A stretch of 58,212 nt of DNA from IMG/VR virus record IMGVR_UViG_3300030103_003525, positions 1-58,212 of that record. The stretch is one strand, 5' to 3'. Under the pieces are notes generated by a model. The model made no database searches. It was given only the letters and a program-made list of their open reading frames with translations, and was not told the origin of the DNA. The number at the start of each line of letters is the position of its first letter. Position 1 is the stretch's first letter. The translations under genes and the position numbers were made by a program. This document shows, in pieces, positions 3,001-18,704 of the stretch. The DNA comes from a virus.

Positions 3001-6000
3001 AAATTTGTTCCTGACCTATCTAAATTAAAAGAATTAGTTGCTTGGTCTATGCGGAAGCCATAATGTATTGTGCTATCAGTTGGTTGTATACTTAAAGCAA
3101 CATCTCCAGCTGTATTACTTCTTGGTCTTCTTGCTTGAACATCACCATCTGAACTTATCTCAAACCTATGACCCGCTGTTCCGCCAGCTGTTGCGTCATA
3201 TACATAAAACGCACTAGCAGCGTTAGCACCTGTAGCACTACCGCCAGTACCTATTCTAAATTCTCTTGCTGCCTTAACCGCTAGTTCTGCATAACTATTA
3301 GTAACAGTTTTTTCAATCATTAAACCTCTAGTATCGCCAGATGTGCTTTTTATGTGAAGCTGTAGCGAGGGAGAGGTAGTACCAATTCCTAATCTACCTG
3401 CGCTAGTAACAGTAAGAACTGTTGATCCAGCGTTTTGAACAGCTATTCCTTCGCTATTTATACTATTTAATATTATCTTACCCGTTGTGTCAGTGTTTAT
3501 TTCTGATCTAGTTCCGTTGTTTGCTCTATTTAAAATAAGCTTGTTTCCAGATAGAAGTCTAATATCACCATCAACTGTTACGCGATCAAAAGGATTATTA
3601 GTTCCAATTCCTAACCTATTATTAGTGTTATCCCAATAAAGATTAGCACTACTACTTATTGAATTTGTTCCATCCCAAAATGCTACCCTAGTAGCAACAC
3701 CACTTCCATTTACTCCAAGAGTTCTTTCTATTACATTACCTGAAGAGTCAACAGCTAGTGCTTTTACTGGAGTTCCTGTTACTGTACCACTTCCGTAAGC
3801 ACTTAACTTTAATGCTCCAGAAGAAGATATACGCATTTTTTCTGTTCCTGCGCCAGTAGAACCTGCACTACCTGTATGAAATCTTATATTAGTGGCAGGC
3901 TCTCCAAGACCTGTTCCTCCACCTAAATAAAGTTGATTTTCTCCATTTACTCCATCATACAAAATTGCGGTTGCTTTGTTTCCAGTATAAGCACCGCCCA
4001 TAAACCTCAAGCTAGAATTTGTATTAGAACTAGAACTTGAACGACCAGTAATTAATCCATTTGTATTTATAACTTCAACTTCTCCTGAAAAAGTTGCATT
4101 ATTATTTCCATCTAATCTTAATGCTGTTGAAGCACCACTACCATCATATGTTTGAAATGATAAACTATAATTATTAACTAAACCTTCTATAATACGCGCA
4201 TCTCCGTTTGCCCAATCAAGCATACCACCTGAAGGAAGATCAAACTCTGGAGCAGAAACATTTCCTGAAAAAGTTGCATTTTGTGATGAGTCTAATAATA
4301 ATGCTCTTGTTAATGCTGATCCTGTTTCTGTAAAAAATCCTAAACTGCTTATTGCACCACTGCCTCGTAATGCTTGTATTCTTGCCATAAACCTATTGGC
4401 AGTGTCATTAGAACTTGATTTAAAATCAATATTGTAACCTCCACCGTTATCAATATTATCGTTATCAAAAAGAAGCTGAGTAGTGGGAGAAGTTTGAGAT
4501 CCTGATTCGTGTGATATTGTTACAGTCCCACTAACTTCCAACTTAGCAGTAGGGTTAGTATTTCCAATACCCACATCACCTCCATTAAAGTAACTATCTC
4601 CAGCAGTAGATATTTGTACTTGTGCTTGCTCTCCATTAGAGTACATCTTATAAACAGCATTATCACTACTGTCTATCTCCATCTTAAAAGATAAAGTGTC
4701 ATCAGTATCTTCTTTTATGATAAAAGCATTTGAGTTTGTAGCTGAATGTATTTCAAGTTTTGCAGCAGGATTATTAGTGCCAATTCCTACGTTGCCGTCA
4801 CTTTTAATACGCATTTTTTCTGAACGTGTCCCATTGTGGCGTGTACTAAAAACTAAGTTTCCAGAACTAACATTACTTGTTTGAACTACACCTATAGAAG
4901 CCTCTGCTGTTGTCTGTCCACTATAACCTGTTACACTAAATCTAATATTAGCAAACTGATTACTTCCACTAGTGTTTTTCTTTTCTATTCTAAAAGTTTT
5001 TTGATATGCAGATGCATCATAAACTACGCTAGAATCATCTTTAACAACAAGTTTAGAATCAACCGAAGATCCTGTACCAATTCCTACGTTACGACTACTA
5101 TTAATACGCATTGCTTCGCCACCATTTGTTTCAAATAGAATATTTTTATTTGCGTCTTCTGCATATAATTTTAAGTCTCCATCTGTTTTTATTGTAGCTG
5201 TTCCCGTACCTACATTTCTAAAAAGAATTTCTTTAGATCCATTAGCTGCGCTATCTAGCCTTAAAGTATTTCCTGTACCAAATATTTCTAATGGCGCACC
5301 CGGCACGTCAGTCCCTATACCTAACCTATCATTAGTGTTGTCCCAATAAAGATTTGCGTTGCTTGATAATGCTGAAGTGCTTGACCAAAAAGCAACTCTT
5401 GTAGCTACACCTGTTCCAGTTACAGTTCCAGATCCACCACCAGAACCTTCTATGATATTACCTGAAGAATCTACTTGTAACGTATATGCGGCTGTGCCTG
5501 TATGCGTTCCGGATCCATAAGAATTTAACTGAACTTTACCACCAGATTTAATACGCATTCTTTCTGAACCAGCAGTAGAAAAACCTATCTCATCTGTTGC
5601 TGGATGAAAAAATCCTGTGTCTGTATTTCCTTCGAATATTATAGATGGAGCAGCAGCATTTCCTCCTCCTGTATTAACTGTTCCTGAAACAGTAACACCT
5701 GTGCTTGTTGTTTCAATCTTATTTACATTATTATGTCTAAGATTAACTCCACCATCACCTACGGCTTGTATTGCTAATTCAGTGCCTTGAACATAAAGTA
5801 AAAAGTCATCAGCGGATTTTAGTATTAAATCATCTCCAGTATTGCTAATTGTAAAGTCTCCATTAGTATTAGTGATATAGCTGTCAGTAGAATCGTGAGA
5901 TATACTGAGATCATTATCAGCACCAAATGTTACTCTTTTATTATCTGCTAAACCTACGTTTCCTGCGAAAGTTGCTGTTGTGGGCGTTAATGAAAATTGC

Positions 6001-13646: not shown

Positions 13647-14620
13647 TATGATGCATTCAAAAGCAATTTAACGCTTGCTCTAAAATACATAGTTTCTCCC
13701 ACTGAATTGCTTGCCCTAATATGAAACAAACCAGCATCATCAATATATACTACAGTAAAAGTAAATTCTGAAGTTGTAGATGTTCCTAATTGAACCAAAA
13801 CAGAATCTGAAAAAGCTGGATTTACAGTTGCATCTTGAGTATTCCATACAGCAGCTAATGTTCCTACTCTTTTTCTAGTTTCACCTGAATTATATATAAC
13901 ATAATCAATTATTGCTCCTCTAGTACTTAAGTTAGGAACTGTAAATAAACTTTGATTTGTTGCCGAATTTGCTATAGTTGCACTTTCAGAGCTTAAGGCT
14001 GTAGAGGCAGATCCTGAGCTTGGCTCTCTTATAACAAAACTATTACCACCATAAAACAAAGTTGATGTGCTAAATGTAAATAAAGAAGAACCACTAAGAG
14101 ATCCTGAATTATTAAACTGTATTTGAGTGTTGCTACCACCAGCGGCTGCTGTAACTCCTGTAGTTACATAATCTTTTAAGTCTTGAATGGTTATATACTT
14201 ATGAGCTGTTGCGCTTGCGTCATATATAAAGAAGCTATCAGCTATAGCTACAGTAGACTCTGTTAGTTGACTTAATGTTGTTGGAGCGTTTAGGGATATA
14301 ACATTACTTCCTGATACAGCAATGGGAGCTGTTCCAGAATTAGATTCTCCAGTAGTGAACGCAGCAGAACCTAAAGTTCTTTTTACAACATTGTTATTTG
14401 AATCTAACAGCAGAGCAGAAACTTCCGAACTCCCAGTAGAGGGCGCAGTTCCAAATTTTAATGTGCCAGCTACCTCAACGGTTGATGAAGATATTTTAAG
14501 AGCGGAATCGTTTCCCGCCCCATCTTCTACCACCTTAGTAGAAGTAGTTATCACACCACTCTCTAGTTTTAAGAGAGATGTGTAGGCATCTTTTACCTTT
14601 GTTCCTGCAAGTGTTCCCAT
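13646..14620 (-). CDS. Tail-appendage/virion structural protein
   Basis: This 324-residue protein is rich in Ser, Thr, Gly and Ala. It has beta-repeat motifs like those in the giant fibre: an IQFNNSGSLSGSS block, a LLLDSNNNVVKRTLG block and a C-terminal strand-rich domain ending in FRASVKLLLNAS. The early GTKVKDAYTSLLKLE motif is seen in marine-phage appendage proteins. It is probably a short fibre or fibre-associated subunit. It is the first gene of the minus-strand unit that starts at the overlapping promoter pair (14628-14645), with a leader of about 17 nt. Confidence 0.6.
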   Translation of the reverse strand: MGTLAGTKVKDAYTSLLKLESGVITTSTKVVEDGAGNDSALKISSSTVEVAGTLKFGTAPSTGSSEVSALLLDSNNNVVKRTLGSAAFTTGESNSGTAPIAVSGSNVISLNAPTTLSQLTESTVAIADSFFIYDASATAHKYITIQDLKDYVTTGVTAAAGGSNTQIQFNNSGSLSGSSLFTFSTSTLFYGGNSFVIREPSSGSASTALSSESATIANSATNQSLFTVPNLSTRGAIIDYVIYNSGETRKRVGTLAAVWNTQDATVNPAFSDSVLVQLGTSTTSEFTFTVVYIDDAGLFHIRASNSVGETMYFRASVKLLLNAS

Positions 14621-17743: not shown

Positions 17744-17775
17744 TTTGTTTATTAAATTACATTTAGTTATATTAG
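17744..17775 (+). promoter_or_regulatory. Candidate promoter TTTG-N20-TATATTAG
   Basis: TTTG (17744-17747) is followed after 20 nt by TATATTAG (17768-17775), one mismatch from TAnnTTTG. It would start the transcript for 17807-18151 and the downstream ribozyme. Confidence 0.35.
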
Positions 17776-17806: not shown

Positions 17807-18151
17807 ATGAAAATTCTAAATAACGATCAGAAAATAAGAAAAGGACACAAAAACGTTCAGAACTTAGGAAATTTAGCTAGTACTGCTTTAATTGTAGAGC
17901 TTGAAAACATAATTAAAAAGAGAATTGAAGAGGTTAAATCTGTTATTAAAAACAATGAATCGGCAACTACAAAAGAGCCTTATAAAACAGAGTGGGTAGA
18001 TTTTGATGGTGGAAAGATTTTAAAATCTACAAGGACTGATTTCAAATGCTGTAATGATCTTGTTAGAATAGGTATGTCAAGCAATGAGGAAACACTTGAG
18101 GTTTTAGATACGTTTTTACGAGCAATAAACCTTGAAAAAGGGCCATTTTAA
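17807..18151 (+). CDS. Early-region protein of unknown function
   Basis: This 114-residue Lys/Glu-rich protein has a helical middle (ELENIIKKRIEEVKSVIKNN). No family was recognised. Its ATG follows a leader ending ACAACACAAATT. Nearly the same leader stands before 18237 and 18705. The hammerhead ribozyme lies 7 nt after its stop, so its mRNA would be separated from the next gene by self-cleavage. Confidence 0.7.
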   Translation: MKILNNDQKIRKGHKNVQNLGNLASTALIVELENIIKKRIEEVKSVIKNNESATTKEPYKTEWVDFDGGKILKSTRTDFKCCNDLVRIGMSSNEETLEVLDTFLRAINLEKGPF

Positions 18152-18158
18152 ATGCGTA

Positions 18159-18209
18159 GACTAACTGATGAGGATTTAATATCCGAAACGCTGTGACAGC
18201 GTCTTAGTC
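18159..18209 (+). ncRNA. Hammerhead ribozyme (type I topology)
   Basis: All core elements are present in order. Stem I 5' strand GACTAA (18159-18164). CTGATGA (18165-18171). Stem II GGAT/ATCC with a 5-nt loop (18172-18184). GAAA (18185-18188). Stem III CGCTG/CAGCG with a TGA loop (18189-18201), with A18188 pairing T18202. The cleavage triplet GTC ends at C18203. Stem I 3' strand TTAGTC (18204-18209) pairs perfectly with the 5' strand. Stem I is the open helix. Cleavage after C18203 would cut the mRNA between two small genes and leave a downstream message with a short A-rich leader for 18237. The fold is perfect by inspection; activity is inferred from the known motif. Confidence 0.92.
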
Positions 18210-18236
18210 AAACAAATAAAGTAAAACAACACAATT

Positions 18237-18569
18237 ATGAAGTACACTTGGAACGATCACACTTTAGAATCATTCAAAGAAATGATCCCAAAAATAAATG
18301 TAGGAGAAATGATTATTAATATAATTTTCTTTGTAAAAAATCACTGTCAATTAGAAGATGGAGACACTAATGAAATGTTAGTGGCAGATTTACTAAATCA
18401 AGTCTATAATGGAGAAATAGATGAAGATTATGTAGATTTTGTATTTGAGGATTCAGTAATTAAAAATCCATATTATGATGAAAGCGGAAGGTTTAATGTA
18501 AATCCAATAGAATATTATGGTGAATATTATTTGAATGCAATAAACCGATTAACTCGCCTTCTAACGTAG
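18237..18569 (+). CDS. Early-region protein of unknown function
   Basis: This 110-residue acidic protein (MKYTWNDHTLESFKEMIPKI start) is helical and has Asp/Glu-rich stretches. No family was recognised. It starts 27 nt downstream of the hammerhead, after a leader containing AAACAAATAA and ending ACAACACAATT. That leader nearly repeats before 18705. Its mRNA probably begins at the ribozyme cleavage product. Confidence 0.7.
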   Translation: MKYTWNDHTLESFKEMIPKINVGEMIINIIFFVKNHCQLEDGDTNEMLVADLLNQVYNGEIDEDYVDFVFEDSVIKNPYYDESGRFNVNPIEYYGEYYLNAINRLTRLLT

Positions 18570-18584: not shown

Positions 18585-18670
18585 TGCCATCAGTCTGCAT
18601 AGAGATATGCGGACTTTTGGTGGTAAATGGTGACCGGGTAGCAAATCACTGGATGGTCCAGAGTCCCCGG
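18585..18670 (+). ncRNA. Pseudoknotted intergenic RNA of unrecognised class
   Basis: Domain 1 is a long hairpin: TGCCATCA (18585) with TGGTGGTA (18618-18625), continuing into GTCTGCATA / TATGCGGAC around a GAGA tetraloop, with a 3-nt TTT bulge. Domain 2 is an H-type pseudoknot: GTGA (18630-18633) with TCAC (18646-18649), and CCGGG (18634-18638) with CCCGG (18666-18670), with a TGGA-TGG-TCCA hairpin inside. It occupies the same slot as the hammerhead, just before the shared A-rich leader of the next gene. It may be another ribozyme or a regulatory RNA. I could not match it to twister, HDV-like, pistol or hatchet consensus features by eye. Confidence 0.6.
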
Positions 18671-18704
18671 AAATTATAAACTAAAACAAATAAGCAACAC
18701 AATT

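Follow-up and report, generated by a model that had tools for sequence, protein, structure and literature searches.

The window analyzed here, a viral DNA stretch of 58,212 nucleotides, carries a compact type I hammerhead ribozyme sequence at positions 18159–18209, in the sense orientation within the gap between two co-oriented genes, referred to below by their first positions as genes 17807 and 18237. The features of this junction are the following (MFE, minimum free energy).

17744–17775, + strand: Bacteroidota-like promoter, TTTG-N20-TATATTAG (pattern scan, a match to the consensus only), the presumed origin of the transcript to be cut
17807–18151, + strand: upstream cistron, 114 aa, no family match (ORF and family searches)
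18158, + strand: flanking A at position −1, near-invariant in the compact family (126/127 copies; 134/134 among copies with 5-nt loops)
18159–18209, + strand: compact type I hammerhead ribozyme, from stem I to stem I (direct sequence, MFE fold, and a covariance model built without the window)
18159–18164, + strand: stem I 5′ strand, GACUAA (DNA GACTAA), 6 bp with 18204–18209
18165–18171, + strand: catalytic core CUGAUGA, C3 to A9 (sequence and loose hammerhead search)
18172–18184, + strand: stem II, 4 bp, with GGAT at 18172–18175, loop TTAAT (U-UAA-U), and ATCC at 18181–18184 (sequence, MFE fold)
18180, + strand: U, last base of loop II, predicted to contact A18210 (covariation)
18185–18188, + strand: GAAA, G12 to A15.1 (sequence)
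18189–18201, + strand: stem III, 5 bp, CGCTG/CAGCG with loop TGA (sequence, MFE fold)
18202–18203, + strand: U16.1 and C17, with predicted cleavage 3′ of C18203 (hammerhead numbering on the sequence)
18204–18209, + strand: stem I 3′ strand, TTAGTC (pairing with 18159–18164)
18204–18236, + strand: 33-nt leader that the downstream mRNA would have once cleaved, comprising the stem I 3′ strand and an A-rich leader, and resembling the leader of gene 17807
18210–18211, + strand: flanking AA at +1/+2, with +1 covarying with the last base of loop II (family comparison)
18237–18569, + strand: downstream cistron, 110 aa, no family match, with a relative at the same gene start in contig L002 (ORF and family searches)

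The best cultured-phage matches of the large terminase were to Flavobacterium elemo phages (40%) and Cellulophaga phages (~35%), which supports a Bacteroidota host and upholds the assignment to a Bacteroidetes phage made in a first-pass annotation of the sequence. The early-gene setting proposed there also holds, since the rightward block following the ribozyme encodes recombination and replication proteins, namely, a methyltransferase, a Sak-like annealing protein, an exonuclease, a primase/helicase, and a RusA-like resolvase. A BLAST search of the 22 kb between positions 14000 and 36000 against cultured phages returned no close relative. The window contains no tRNA gene, and a tRNA or theta-ribozyme setting was rejected on that ground. 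The leaders of genes 17807, 18237, and 18705 are alike, so that after cleavage at the ribozyme the mRNA of gene 18237 would have a leader closely resembling that of gene 17807. Another intergenic RNA in the same type of position as the hammerhead, also strongly structured (z = −3.5), lies at 18590–18690 between genes 18237 and 18705; it had no Rfam match, and its sole other copy found was in the same-species contig L063.

Read directly as RNA, positions 18159–18209 consist of GACUAA, CUGAUGA, GGAU, UUAAU, AUCC, GAAA, CGCUG, UGA, CAGCG, UC, and UUAGUC, in this order. The conserved hammerhead core, CUGANGA...GAAA...UH, is thus present at 18165–18171, 18185–18188, and 18202–18203, and all elements occupy the positions and order originally described, including a fully paired 6-bp stem I. 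The hammerhead secondary structure is the MFE fold of the segment, with three helices joined at the core and an A15.1-U16.1 pair that extends stem III, an arrangement also reflected in the covariation of the family. Stem I is open and hairpin loops close stems II and III, which defines the molecule as type I. The spacing had likewise been given correctly, with stem I beginning 7 nt after the stop codon TAA (18149–18151) and ending 27 nt before the ATG at 18237, as had the predicted cleavage position, since C17 corresponds to C18203 by hammerhead numbering. With the core intact, the RNA is expected to cleave itself after C18203.

A loose hammerhead search yielded 1 match in the window, compared with a mean of 0.15 in base-shuffled copies. 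For an independent assessment, we used a covariance model, R1, constructed from 21 phage relatives with the window sequence left out. R1 matched the ribozyme over its full length with 69.2 bits (E = 2.1e-13 across 58 kb, both strands), the runner-up match having an E-value of 2.2, and found only one copy in this genome. A chance motif was rejected on the basis of the shuffled copies and the R1 E-value. The strong match to a type I covariance model that had been anticipated did not materialize in Rfam 15, whose search of the window gave no hammerhead above the gathering score; the Hammerhead_1 model (RF00163) run alone gave no match at E 0.001 and its gathering score of 34 bits was not reached. 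The best sub-threshold Rfam scores, obtained for a 66-nt stretch, were 19.1 bits for RAGATH-1 and 18.2 bits for Hammerhead_3, and the other families among the sub-threshold matches (snoRNAs, isrJ) were rejected as chance. Rfam also overlooks ~58 further structurally complete copies in 12 viral loci, as well as the copies in six loci drawn from cultured phages or bacterial genome contigs (L085, L089, L092, and L095–L097), but does detect a type II hammerhead in L098, which served as a positive control. Because complete copies in related phages are missed too and the type II control is found, the missing match reflects a gap in Rfam rather than counter-evidence. The control hammerhead itself (RF02276, 45.1 bits; L098 2999–3060, in the Manatee Spring podophage MW202801.1) is located just 3′ of a 66-aa gene, which in turn follows an antirestriction gene. 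That the window sequence is a chance resemblance or an inactive, degenerate hammerhead, as the lack of an Rfam 15 match over threshold could be taken to suggest, is thus extremely improbable, given the E-value of the independent model and a core, stems, and flanking A residues that fit a conserved family.

To delineate this family, we searched with the core and a GGAT/ATCC stem II as the sole fixed elements, broadening stem II for bacterial genome contigs. This pattern was found in 75 IMG/VR stretches, and the broader version in 13 stretches of bacterial genome contigs. Of the viral-contig matches to core plus stem II, 81 were distinct, and 76 of these additionally form a stem I of at least 4 bp and a stem III of at least 3 bp, which constitutes an unselected test, since neither stem was demanded by the scan. 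Changes on both sides were observed in 13 of the 16 helix pairs in 21 ungapped relatives, although this covariation is weak evidence on its own because the sequences were selected for pairing. Applied to 50 whole viral contigs, R1 gave 143 matches in 47 contigs, a proportion that is not a prevalence, given that the contigs were mostly picked by the pattern; 30 contigs carried two or more copies, with a maximum of 14. Besides the A at −1, the copies share a stem I that is usually 6 bp with nothing beyond it (no outer loop), an A or U immediately after stem I, and a loop II of the form U-NNN-U/A/G. The window sequence matches R1 and has all of these traits, and is a member of a coherent compact hammerhead subtype that is widespread in phages. 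Its hammerhead identity is further backed by the stem covariation and by the arrays formed in relatives.

The spacing between copies in arrays has a median of 462 nt, one called gene between copies being the commonest arrangement (39/89), and copies within one genome have diverged stems and an intact core. Such arrays could be read as ribozyme pairs that release circular or trimmed RNAs of the enclosed genes, as opposed to linear mRNAs. The probability of this is practically negligible, considering that the window contains a single copy and that circular or spliced products were sought by Perreault et al. without any being found (PMC3088659). Among the arrays, a 5.8-kb contig of an Aliivibrio MAG (L085, 534–4571), probably a misbinned phage contig, carries eight compact hammerheads in a row. 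Within each of two other phages (L044 and L056), the ribozymes have in common stem III hairpins that are long and alike (~11–13 bp, with a AGTCTGTT or AGTCCGTT core) and look as if they were spreading or being homogenized between copies.

Known fast hammerheads depend on a contact of loop II with a loop of stem I, either internal or terminal (PMC3088659), and ~40% use a pseudoknot. The window copy has no stem I loop that could engage in the usual contact with loop II. The final loop II base and the base that immediately follows stem I showed Watson–Crick covariation, with U/A in 128, A/U in 17, and other combinations in 7 of 152 copies, and this association persisted after close relatives had been collapsed to 43 clusters (Fisher p = 1e-6). 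The ungapped alignment of 21 relatives gave a similar distribution for the same pair (U/A 15, A/U 4, other 2), and in six of the nine loci that carry more than one pair class, both the U/A and A/U forms are present. None of the remaining 24 loop–tail combinations tested covaried, and more extended pseudoknot pairing of loop II with the 3′ tail was rejected, since only loop position 5 covaries with +1. The pattern points to a new form of tertiary contact, in which the compact subtype would make its activating contact through the bases flanking stem I; lengthening of both stems by one pair together would fit the same data.

Cultured carriers of the subtype, counted only when confirmed by R1 (weak BLAST matches in Streptomyces, Shigella, and Escherichia phages were not counted), include the Flavobacterium elemo phages, Methylophilales phage MEP301, Pelagibacter phage Jormungand, and Cellulophaga phage phi19:3. 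In near-identical elemo phages, the ribozyme varies only at N7 and in stem II. The latter is GACT/AGTC in elemoA_13-1A versus GGTT/AACC in some of the others, a double compensatory change that provides natural evidence of selection on the structure. In elemoD_13-5B, only one half of the stem II change is present, leaving two mismatches, and some copies may thus be weak. Taken with the conservation across the family, the comparative evidence strongly supports maintenance of 18159–18209 by selection as an RNA structure. In one record (L095, elemoB_14-3B, position 4035), the annotated CDS starts at a GTG inside stem III of the ribozyme, the true start probably being the ATG that follows the ribozyme; other elemo records have a small reverse-strand ORF at that site.

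The ribozyme is absent from the nearest relatives sharing the same genes (L002, L003, and L005) and from the closest terminase relative (MW202828.1), and hence is not essential. This patchy occurrence, together with neighboring genes that differ between phages, would be expected of a small element, neutral or selfish, that moves among phage intergenic regions and folds and cleaves with no benefit to the phage. We consider such an origin of the pattern quite unlikely, because it does not account for compensatory stem changes in otherwise near-identical elemo phages, for sense-strand placement, or for copies within one genome that have diverged stems and an intact core.

The contig L002 is 80% identical in DNA over ~176 nt to the start of gene 18237 and has no hammerhead there. 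At that junction, it instead carries a repeated promoter-like box and a GC hairpin that resembles a terminator and has a T run. The box, AARGTYACRAYYARAATACGA, is present in six copies before genes, all on one strand (1818, 2551, 2908, 3245, 3882, and 5176; 0.01 expected), and is followed by GGATAAT, with some copies coming after terminator-like hairpins. It is likely a phage promoter, and terminator plus promoter may be a different means of keeping the transcripts at this junction apart.

The placement of the family relative to genes was determined in the relatives by simple ORF calling. Ribozyme and downstream gene share a strand in 138 of 150 cases, ribozyme and upstream gene in 137 of 146, and the first ATG mostly lies 10–25 nt 3′ of the ribozyme. 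In 138 of 157 cases, the end of an ORF of 40 aa or more falls between −40 and +30 relative to stem I, so that the ribozyme and a short leader fill the intergenic gap. In 35 cases, the stop codon is the UAA of stem I, as for gp051 of phi19:3, and in 13 it is the UGA of the CUGA core. Placement alone proves no function, since compact genomes could pack any element tightly.

The position of the stop codons bears on the possibility that cleavage is regulatory, with the terminating ribosome blocking folding and the RNA being cut only if the upstream gene is poorly translated. In line with this, 73 of the 138 stops overlap the ribozyme, and the stop in the window ends 7 nt before stem I, inside the normal ribosome footprint. 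However, tight packing is also predicted by small intergenic spaces, and the other 65 stops end at or before stem I; we regard regulation of this kind as unlikely. A broader proposal, which we offer tentatively and to which we give slightly more credence, is that a compact subtype activated by the loop II/+1 base pair may be a standard intercistronic processing unit of phages. With the upstream stop often located within the ribozyme, termination and self-cleavage would be mutually exclusive, and the built-in stops would couple transcript splitting to translation of the upstream gene.

We favor as quite probable the reading that the sequence is a self-cleaving compact type I hammerhead, which cuts an early polycistronic message into units whose ends are defined. 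Transcription would begin upstream of gene 17807, and a single transcript presumably spans genes 17807 and 18237. Once the polymerase has passed position 18211, stems I–III could form, loop II would touch the bases flanking the short stem I, as the covariation suggests, and the RNA would cut itself after C18203. The ribozyme would stay on the upstream mRNA, forming a structured 3′ terminus that carries a 2′,3′-cyclic phosphate, whereas the downstream mRNA would start with a 5′-hydroxyl and the 33-nt A-rich leader. Splitting of the early message in this manner may give the units separate lifetimes and separate translation. Both the mRNA-dividing role and its benefit are deduced from placement: the role, which had been proposed at the outset, fits the positions of the ribozymes at well over a hundred junctions, but the idea is not new (PMC3088659).

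To the question of what role hammerheads have in bacteria and phages, the present analysis contributes a defined, recurring subtype missed by the database and a covariation-based hypothesis on its tertiary contact. Because the carriers include cultured phages with laboratory hosts, the mRNA-divider idea is directly testable, and the elemo variants with intact, swapped, and mismatched stem II offer a ready natural comparison.

Compared with known systems, the window sequence agrees with Hammerhead_1 (RF00163, clan CL00010) in all core residues, stem order, open stem I, and predicted cleavage after NUH, but differs in that its 6-bp stem I lacks an internal or terminal loop and the contact appears to be made through unpaired bases outside stem I. 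RAGATH-1 (RF03152) and Hammerhead_3 (RF00008), the models with the best sub-threshold scores, have the same catalytic core; however, the window is far below their gathering scores (56.3 and 48.5, respectively), the stem arrangement differs, and an alignment to RF00008 requires a poor, forced helix. The theta (HDV-like) ribozymes of gut phages (PMC10879173) are likewise self-cleaving RNAs in phage transcripts, but have another fold and are tied to tRNA-based recoding; the window has no tRNA gene. The prophage hammerhead clusters of Perreault et al. 2011 were proposed to split long transcripts; the arrays cleaved in vitro, and one cleaved when transcribed in E. coli (PMC3088659). There, as here, several hammerheads flank single genes or short blocks in phage genomes, but those clusters mix types I–III, many with a pseudoknot, whereas the relatives described here carry one compact type I form, with up to 14 copies per contig. 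Hammerheads in phage gene blocks and their transcript-splitting use had thus already been proposed in 2011, along with cleavage of other arrays (PMC3088659). What is new is a compact subtype undetected by Rfam 15, the covariation between loop II and +1, the stop codons lying within the ribozyme, and the carriers among cultured phages, although the subtype may be present, undescribed, in the supplementary alignments of Perreault et al. 2011.
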